A stretch of DNA of 64,000 nt from Mesoplasma syrphidae (GTDB lineage Bacteria > Bacillota_I > Bacilli_A > Mycoplasmatales > Mycoplasmataceae), in the NCBI RefSeq assembly GCF_002843565.1, contig NZ_CP025257.1:682001-746000 (forward strand), in the 5' to 3' direction. The position numbers and the translations under genes were made by a program. Each line of letters begins with the position of its first letter. Within the stretch, counting starts at the first letter, position 1. A model generated the notes under the pieces. The model did not search any database. It was not told where the DNA came from and worked only from the letters and a program-made list of their open reading frames with translations. Of this stretch, positions 47,368 to 50,339 are shown in pieces.

Positions 47368-50157
47368 TTATAATCAGCTTTTATAAATTTTAATATACCC
47401 AACTTTAACAGCTTGAGCTAATCCTACGTATGACAATAAAATACCTAAAACAATTGGTGCGTATCATAGTGGTGGAGATTGCATTTTCAATAATGTTGCT
47501 GCTGGTGTAAATGCAAACACAAAGGCACATCCAGTCACAATTCCAGTAGACAGCATCACTGGTCATGGAGCACGTGATTGAATAAATGGAATTTTTTCAG
47601 TTCTCATAATTTGTACTACTCATGCTTGTGTTAACAATCCAACAACAAATCATGAAGCATTAAATTGCGCTTTTGCTTGAGCCATCGCTTCTAGGTTACC
47701 ATTAGCATTATTGTAATCTCCAATGTATCCTAATCCAAATCCAGCAATAGCAAATGTTACTAAATCAAACACAGAACTTACTGGTCCATTAATCAATGTA
47801 AATGGAACTAAGGATTTCGCATTTCATCGTTGAGGTTTTGCCACAAAGGTGTCATCAACTCTATCTAATGCAATTGCAAATTGTGATAGATCATATAATA
47901 AGTTTTGGAACAATAGTTGAATTGGTTCCATTGGTGAAAAGGCTAGCAATGGAGCCACTATTAACATTGATAAAACATTTCCAAAATTTGAAGCAGTTGT
48001 AATCTTCATATACTTAAGAATATTTCCAAAAATTGTGCGTCCTTGAACAATTCCCTTTTCCAGAACTAATAATGATTTTTCCAATAAAATAATATCTGAC
48101 GCATCTTTAGCAATATCAGTTGCATTGTTAACTGAAATTGCCACATCTGATTGACGAAGAACTGGAGCATCATTAATTCCATCTCCCATAAATCCAACAA
48201 TATGATCATTTTGTTTCAAAACTTTAATAATCTTAACTTTTTGCAACGGATTCAATTTGACAAAAATATTATTTTCCTCAACCATACGTCGCAATTGAAT
48301 TTCATTGGCTTCATCAATCTCTTTTCCTGTTACCAATCCAGAGATTTTTAAATCCACCATTTTACAAATTGAGCGTGTTATATGTTCATTGTCACCTGTT
48401 AAAATCTTTAGTTGAACACCATATTTATCAAGCAGCTTAATCATTTTTTTTGCTGATGGTTTTGGTGTGTCTAAAAATGATGCAAATCCAAAGAAAACTA
48501 ACTCTGATTCATCACCAACTTTAAATGTAGTTTTACCATCAGTAATATCTTTATAAGCAATTCCCAATAGACGCTTTCCTTCTTCATTGATTGAATCATT
48601 GTACGCTAGCATTTGACGTTTTAAATCTTCATCTAAATCAACAACTTTTCCTTGGTAGTAAACTTTTGTACATGATTCAATTACTTCTTCAACTGACCCT
48701 TTAGTAACCATTGTTGTTCCAACCTCATCAGTTTTAAAAACAATTGTTAGTTTGCGTCGATTAAAATCAAAAGGAATTTCATCAATTTTAGTAACTGAGT
48801 CTAAAAAGTTTGAATTTATTTGACTATTATTAGCAATATAATCAATCACAGCTTTATCCATTGGGTTTTTTAAACCTGTTTGAAAATAACTGTTAATATA
48901 CAATAATTTTAATAGTCTCTCGTCACGTTTTTTATCAGTTGTTACAAAATCAATTAATTCAATTTTGTCATTTGTTAAAGTTCCAGTTTTATCAGTACAC
49001 AGAATATCAATTGAACCCAATGACTGAATTGATTCTAATTTTTTAACAACAACTTTATTTTTGGCCATACGTGCAGCTCCACTCGCCAAGTTTGTAGTTA
49101 CAATCATTGGTAACATTTCTGGAGTTAGTCCAACTGCTACTGATGCAGCAAACAATGTTGCAGTAATTCAAGCTTCACTTGCATCTTTACCATTTAAAGT
49201 TCAAGTAATTCCATTAATTGTTAATACAATTGGAATCATAACTAACATAAAAATAATTAGCATTCTAGTAACGTTTCTTACTCCTTTTTCAAAAGAAGAA
49301 ACTGGGCGTTTTTCCATAATTGATTTGCTAATTGTTGAGAAATAAGTATTTCTTCCTGTCCCAACTGCAATTGCAATTGCAGAACCTGAAATTACGCTTG
49401 TTCCTGTAAAACAAATATTTTCTAAATCTAAAATATTTTCAGTATCAACTGAATTTTCAGCATGTTTTTCAACAGGCATTGATTCTCCTGTTAATGAAGA
49501 TTGGTTAATAAATAAATCTGTTGAACGAATAATTCTTACATCTGCTGGTATCATATCACCACTTGATAAATAAATTAAATCACCAGGTACTAATTCACGA
49601 ACATCAATTTCTTCTCCCAATTTAATTAAACCCAGTTGATTTGTTTGACTAACAGTTGTATACACATTTAATTGATCATCATTTTGATGACGAATAATTG
49701 TTGCTTTATTATTTACAATATTTCCTAGTTTTTTAGTAATAAAAAAACTTTTTGCTGATTGGACTAATGACATAGTCCCACTACTAATAATCATTGTAGC
49801 AATGATAACTACTCCGATATAATCAAAAATTTCTGGTCCACCCTCTTCTGTTCCAAAATTTCCAGTCGAAAAGCTAATAACATTAAATGCCAAAATTAAC
49901 ATTAAAATAATATTAAATGGTCCAAAAAATGCTTTAATAAATTCTGAAAATCAGCTAAAACGTGATTTGTCCAATTCGTTTTTACCATATTTTTCAAGGC
50001 GTTCTTTATATTCTTCATTTGTTAATCCAAAGTTAACTAAATTAAACTCCTTCAAGATTTGAGTTTGATCTAATGTTGAAAAATTGTGCAAAACTTTTTC
50101 ATTTGGAAAGACATTTTTGATTTTATCAGGAGCTCTTTTTGATTTGTTTTTAATCAT
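47368..50157 (-). CDS. mgtA: P-type Mg2+-transporting ATPase
   Basis: 929 residues, MgtA/P3B family. Cation-ATPase N domain first; actuator loop with LTGESMPVEKH; phosphorylation site CTDKTGTLTND (D389); nucleotide-binding KGSVEEVIESC; hinge GFMGDGINDAPVLRQSDVAISV; ten predicted membrane segments, the last four after residue 780. TGA-coded Trp codons split the frame in three places under the standard code. It imports Mg2+ using ATP. AAGGAG precedes the ATG. A 38-codon leader ORF (50189-50305) lies on the same transcript 31 bases upstream and probably controls expression. Confidence 0.95.
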
Positions 50158-50188
50158 TTTTCTCCTTATTTTTAAGAATTGAATAAAA

Positions 50189-50305
50189 TTAAAAACTATT
50201 TATAGATTTTGAAATCGATAGATAATTTATAGTATTATTCAATAATTTACTTATGCTGGTACGGGACTCCGGACTGTCGGAAGCCGGTAAAGGACTTGAT
50301 GCCAT
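50189..50305 (-). CDS. Putative mgtA leader peptide
   Basis: 38-residue ORF directly upstream of mgtA, starting MASSPLPASDSPESRTSI and ending TAA 50189-50191. GAGGTGAT lies at ideal distance from the ATG. The first half is about 58% G+C, using CCG, TCC, GAG, CGT and ACC codons that are rare here, and its RNA can form TCCG/CGGA and CCGG/CCGG stems. The alternation of Pro with Asp and Glu near the N terminus resembles the Mg2+-sensing MgtL leader principle, in which ribosomes falter at low Mg2+. No sequence match to MgtL is claimed. Confidence 0.65.
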   Translation of the reverse strand: MASSPLPASDSPESRTSISKLLNNTINYLSISKSINSF

Positions 50306-50333
50306 AAACTATCACCTCTTTCTTACTTAACTT

Positions 50334-50339
50334 ATTATA
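50334..50339 (-). promoter_or_regulatory. -10 box of the mgtA leader transcript
   Basis: TATAAT on the minus strand about 28 bases before the leader peptide ATG. No convincing -35 box is visible at the usual distance. Confidence 0.55.

Follow-up and report, generated by a model that had tools for sequence, protein, structure and literature searches.

A putative leader-peptide attenuator ahead of the magnesium pump gene mgtA in Mesoplasma syrphidae and its relatives

The gene mgtA of Mesoplasma syrphidae lies within the DNA stretch analysed here (the window, 64,000 nucleotides of contig NZ_CP025257.1), where it is preceded by a short open reading frame, the leader, and by the signals collected in Table 1. 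The product of mgtA is a genuine Mg2+ ATPase, and its nearest solved structures are those of MgtA. At the thresholds used, MgtA homologues occur in 57 of the 60 genomes of the window's family and in 69 of the 148 genomes of the order. Two of the copies in group g8, L050 and L074, contain an in-frame TAA and are possible pseudogenes. No CorA was found in the M. syrphidae genome, and a leader of the mgtA type was not seen before mgtE or before the three other P-type ATPases of this genome.

Table 1. Features of the mgtA locus, in window coordinates
Feature	Position	Strand	Basis or remark
mgtA, magnesium-translocating P-type ATPase, 929 aa, 9 TGA read as Trp	47368..50157	-	TIGR01524, 945.6 bits (cut-off 610.75)
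mgtA ribosome-binding site AAGGAG (element 3)	50162..50167	-	sequence
UUCUUA, predicted partner of the mgtA ribosome site	50173..50178	-	spacer folds
Element 2, TTATTCAAT, spacer, predicted 3' arm of anti-sequestor helix	50178..50186	-	covarying helix; RNAalifold
Leader ORF, 38 codons, TGA-free, MASSPLPASDSPESRTSISKLLNNTINYLSISKSINSF	50189..50305	-	ORF read from sequence; counterparts in relatives
Element 1, ATTGAATAA, leader codons 21-24, predicted 5' arm of anti-sequestor helix	50235..50243	-	covarying 9-bp helix; RNAalifold
Rare Ser codon UCC, codon 14	50264..50266	-	UCC enrichment across leaders
Pro/acidic/Ser motif SPLPASDSPES, codons 4-14, proposed slow or ribosome-destabilising patch	50264..50296	-	low pN/pS
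Rare Ser codon UCC, codon 9	50279..50281	-	UCC enrichment across leaders
Leader ribosome-binding site AGAGGTG	50313..50319	-	sequence; AGAAAGAGGTG(G/A) in most leaders of the family
-10 promoter element TATAAT, 6/6 match	50334..50339	-	begins 34 nt 5' of the leader ATG

A leader of this length with a good ribosome site ahead of mgtA had been proposed in an initial annotation, and its coordinates proved exact, with a strong site and a perfect TATAAT. The site, AGAAAGAGGTG, ends 7 nt from the leader ATG, and the leader stop stands 31 nt from the ATG of mgtA. The leader has a promoter of its own and is the first ORF to follow it; the promoter position allows only some 20-25 nt of RNA 5' of the leader ATG. 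The composition of its first half is also as first described: codons 2-18 have 56.9% G+C against 30.8% for the whole window, and they make use of codons that are rare (TCC, 2.9% of Ser; CCG, 9.1% of Pro; ACC, 5.4% of Thr). The run SPLPASDSPES had been read as an alternation of Pro with Asp or Glu; both kinds of residue are there, but the wording was slightly generous for three Pro, one Asp and one Glu among Ser. A hairpin in the G+C-rich core was considered and rejected, since shuffled sequences fold equally well (z -0.09) and no counterpart was seen in more distant leaders. The other equally G+C-rich spots of the window are tRNA genes and two short spots at its left end (100-157 and about 461-511; 57% or more over 51 nt), which are not tRNA genes.

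Comparable leader ORFs were recognized 5' of 55 mgtA copies in relatives, one per upstream region being picked by eye among all ORFs with a ribosome site, and 53 of them passed the automatic location of the mgtA start. A TATAAT is found 30-40 nt 5' of the leader in nearly all of the window's family. Since leaders sharing this layout of promoter and ribosome site stand before mgtA in relatives, the ORF goes beyond chance, and at the level of sequence comparison its reality is confirmed. The peptides themselves are dissimilar and, for most relatives, 21 to 44 aa long. Examples from the window's clade are MATSPLPLEDSPESGYKNT..., MAKINVLDDNPES..., MAEQVNSMSDNPEP..., MTLVNVVSGEGPES..., MTIVNAVVGDFPDPES... 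and MTNAITPEPEPGE..., while the MSIPS... and MSPLSSFNDDVP... types are the commonest in the rest of the family. The Pro/acidic chemistry recurs across the window's clade, with motifs such as SPLPLEDSPES, DDNPES, SDNPEP, GEGPES, GDFPDPES, PEPEPGE and DTPDS, and residues 2-15 carry there a net charge of -1 to -3, one species excepted. It is not universal, however: acidic residues are sparse beyond this clade and its nearest groups, and the MSIPS-type leaders, which make up much of the remaining family, are poor in them. Judged across these sequences, the most widespread mark of the leaders is the UCC codon, not the Pro/acidic motif. In the second mgtA copies of group g8 (L076, L078, L079 and L080) two overlapping frames run through the leader region: an ATG opens MLGQQEQSG..., and a start other than ATG, four bases further, gives DNRNSPEPGTG or YNRNSPDSCYN, so that the SPEP-like motif falls in the other frame. 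Outside the window's family, short leader-like ORFs precede mgtA at L123, L131, L132 and L133 (f7) and at L127 and L129 (f3), with the sequences MELQSSER..., MEVQSSDR...; MNPHLNNNADSDYY..., MNVHLNESSSADYY....

The two halves of the leader evolve in different ways. Alignment at the codon level, suggested in the initial annotation as a check, bore out the motif half: pN/pS is 0.17 for codons 2-17 between the two closest species (G000 and G002), 0.32 for codons 2-14 among three species of the window's clade, and 0.09 for codons 2-13 in group g12. By this measure, codons 2-17 evolve as protein under purifying selection. Conservation of the whole peptide did not hold, codons 18-38 not being conserved as peptide; pN/pS of the second half is 8.2 (G000/G002), 1.9 (g12) and 1.9 (g2/g5). 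Tolerated frameshifts, named beforehand as evidence against a leader peptide, may occur in this second half, because the G000/G002 nucleotide alignment allows there a compensated +1/-1 shift, and not in the motif half. An exception is one g11 group, in which the C-terminal peptide is conserved (0.23) and the first nine codons are nearly frozen as DNA. A small protein acting in trans on MgtA, like MgtR or MgtS, would account for the codon-level conservation of the first half, but such a protein is hardly to be expected given the lack of an obvious membrane segment, the pN/pS of 8 in the second half of the two closest species, and the mostly short (21 to 44 aa), mutually dissimilar sequences.

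The second half is, on comparative evidence, selected as RNA and not as peptide. A test for a structured RNA by covariance, proposed at the outset, detected a helix of 9 bp between leader codons 21-24 (element 1) and the spacer (element 2), with 98.1% of cells paired and both sides changed at three of the nine pairs. Over six gap-free clade sequences, with arms trimmed by hand, its covariation is 0.385; shuffles gave 0.192 (0 of 500), and sliding the helix gave no value above 0.178. The same helix was recovered by RNAalifold from seven untrimmed sequences. In M. syrphidae the motif (codons 4-14) is separated by several codons from the helix, which starts at codon 21-22. A third stem formed by the N-terminal half with element 1 or with the spacer was rejected (combined p 0.42).

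Folding, in a model that leaves out ribosome dynamics, predicts that, once this helix forms, the mgtA ribosome site is no longer sequestered; the predicted effect is strong for many relatives and modest for the window. Making leader codons 13 onward available lowers the cost of opening the mgtA site in many of the tested genes: from 6.6 to 1.1 kcal/mol in G003, 5.0 to 1.3 in G005, 5.9 to 1.9 in G015, 7.0 to 0.1 in G069, 7.7 to 0.5 in G071, 5.9 to 1.6 in G040, and 11.0 to 0.6 in the second copy of G068. The corresponding values in the window are 3.5 kcal/mol without the 3' half of the leader and 1.8 with it, and the site is partly paired in both predicted folds. When second halves were swapped in from other species, none of 39 matched the native effect for 15 of the 40 genes, and the combined p was 1.7e-5 for the ten genes of the window's clade, shared ancestry being uncorrected; for the window itself, four of the 39 foreign leaders do as well as the native one. 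No site-opening effect was predicted by folding in groups g5, f7 and part of g11, and the leader-like ORFs of f7 have neither UCC nor the attenuator fold.

These features suggest, with somewhat more confidence than doubt, a translational attenuator run by the leader peptide, by which the pump would be made when Mg2+ is scarce. According to the predicted folds, element 2 would otherwise help to keep the ribosome site of mgtA (element 3) sequestered, and pairing of element 1 with element 2, which the covariation supports, would free it. Ribosomes reaching the leader stop would melt this helix, and translation of mgtA would stay poor. A pause or drop-off within the Pro/acidic/UCC patch, of which low Mg2+ would be the cause, would instead leave element 1 free to pair, and mgtA would be translated, so that the pump would be produced under Mg2+ scarcity. 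That faltering means "on" is the direction we infer. An argument against the attenuator is that a ribosome at the leader stop would itself mask part of element 2. Plain translational coupling, in which ribosomes finishing the leader would help to open mgtA and no signal would be involved, takes its appeal from the stop being 31 nt from mgtA, a distance at which a ribosome ending translation could upset the spacer fold. Coupling seems quite unlikely, for it leaves unexplained why the first 17 codons are conserved, why UCC is there, and why a helix should free the mgtA site only while the second half of the leader is unread.

The UCC codon bears on how the patch might be sensed. Among 33 non-redundant leaders, UCC makes up 26 of the 41 UCN codons in codons 2-17, compared with 20 of 958 (2.1%) in mgtA of those species, a codon test that ignores phylogeny, and occurs only once past codon 17. 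It is present in 24 of the 33, at codon 4, 5, 6, 7, 9, 12, 13 or 14, and the leaders of the window's clade that lack it have CCC, UCG or GGC at the same place, which are likewise rare codons. By reading frame, TCC is found 47 times in frame and 0 and 39 times in the others; these counts alone cannot separate selection on the codon from selection on the RNA, since X-Pro pairs create out-of-frame TCC. Pairing of UCC with the rest of the leader and the spacer does not go beyond shuffles. A function of the motif as an anti-ribosome-site element was rejected, as its duplexes with the leader site and the mgtA site match shuffles. The simplest reading of the enrichment, which falls short of proof, is selection on decoding. 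Twenty-nine tRNAs were found in the genome, and the serine anticodons among them are limited to UGA and GCU; UCC is therefore read through a U34-C3 pairing by the sole UCN-reading tRNA, that with anticodon UGA. An unmodified U34 is common to superwobbling tRNAs, including those of mycoplasmas (PMC10853795), and superwobbling is sometimes less efficient than normal pairing, depending on the codon box (PMC3499367). It is conceivable, though on balance doubtful, that the leader holds a codon sensor, in which tRNA-Ser(UGA) would read UCC by U34-C3 superwobble markedly worse at low Mg2+ and the resulting pause, aided by the Pro and acidic residues, would set the mgtA switch.

The same attenuator might respond to another signal, the slow rare Ser and Pro codons reporting tRNA charging or the general speed of translation. 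This would be in keeping with the UCC enrichment in leader codons 2-17 over the mgtA genes, with the single UCN-reading tRNA found, and with the failure of UCC to pair either with the ribosome sites or with the remaining leader. Such a signal is nevertheless rather improbable: nothing obvious ties a Ser or Pro signal to Mg2+ uptake, the gene encodes a Mg2+ pump, and orthologues in a sister family carry the M-box. Moreover, slow decoding may belong to the Mg2+ response instead of rivalling it. The M-box (ykoK, RF00380) was not detected in the window or in the window's family, but it lies directly 5' of mgtA orthologues in five sister-family genomes (107-134 bits; 5 of 148 across the order). It follows that mgtA is under Mg2+ control in relatives, with the leader standing in the place of the riboswitch. 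As mgtA encodes a Mg2+ pump and an M-box precedes these orthologues, a Mg2+ response is the simplest assumption, and Mg2+ is probably the signal of the leader. One sister-family genome, G102, has two mgtA copies, L108 with an M-box and L064 with a leader ORF, MTEESSV...; elsewhere in the genus (L062, L065), leader copies are accompanied by a second mgtA copy without an M-box match.

A metal-binding riboswitch in the RNA, with the ORF incidental, might also be proposed from the covarying helix and from the M-box at the same place in sister families. It is very improbable: Rfam scans, covering the window and, at a relaxed threshold, the region, returned no family match (a single chance match fell below gathering), the short RNA before the leader ATG offers no space for an upstream aptamer, and the N-terminal half shows conservation at codon level and pairs with the rest no better than shuffled sequences do. 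Compared with the preferred attenuator, the M-box differs in that an RNA aptamer senses Mg2+ directly.

Several known systems share parts of this design. Enterobacterial MgtL, which the initial annotation took as the model, is likewise an mgtA leader ORF with Pro and acidic residues near its start, a character beyond which the sequences share no similarity. The output of MgtL is Rho-dependent transcription termination, an output that is excluded here since the genome is without Rho (best matches of 42.6 and 22.2 bits against a cut-off of 509). The erm attenuators (ermBL, ermCL), in which a pause on the leader refolds the RNA so that the downstream ribosome site becomes free, work as is proposed here; their signal is a ribosome-bound macrolide. 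By analogy, the closest counterpart is mgtQ of the Salmonella mgtCBRU operon, a short ORF with a strong ribosome site 5' of a Mg2+ P-type ATPase, whose action ribosomal protein L31 counteracts. Experiments on mgtQ-mgtB have demonstrated that acidic codons destabilise ribosomes, whereupon alternative stems form and the ribosome site of the pump is freed (PMC8092293). Early acidic residues (in the window's clade), alternative stem-loops that would hide or free the pump's site (here predicted and backed by covariation), and control at translation (here proposed) are common to both. Unlike mgtQ, which is a uORF of 8 aa between mgtC and mgtB inside the operon, the leader is the first ORF of its transcript, is mostly 21-44 aa long and unrelated in sequence, has a recurrent rare UCC, and would supply one arm of the anti-sequestor from its own second half.

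Mollicutes are minimal bacteria with few transcription regulators, and no description of leader-peptide control of Mg2+ uptake in them was found in the open-access literature. If the attenuator is real, Mg2+ control of mgtA in the order would have swapped between an RNA aptamer and a ribosome-based device, and the latter would operate without Rho. The recurrent UCC would offer a testable case in which decoding by a reduced tRNA set serves as a signal. With regard to the tRNA complement of relatives, ARAGORN calls as "SeC" a tRNA of G000 with the anticodon UCA (L151, L153) that adjoins tRNA-Trp(CCA); as this genome reads TGA as Trp, it is presumably a second tRNA-Trp.
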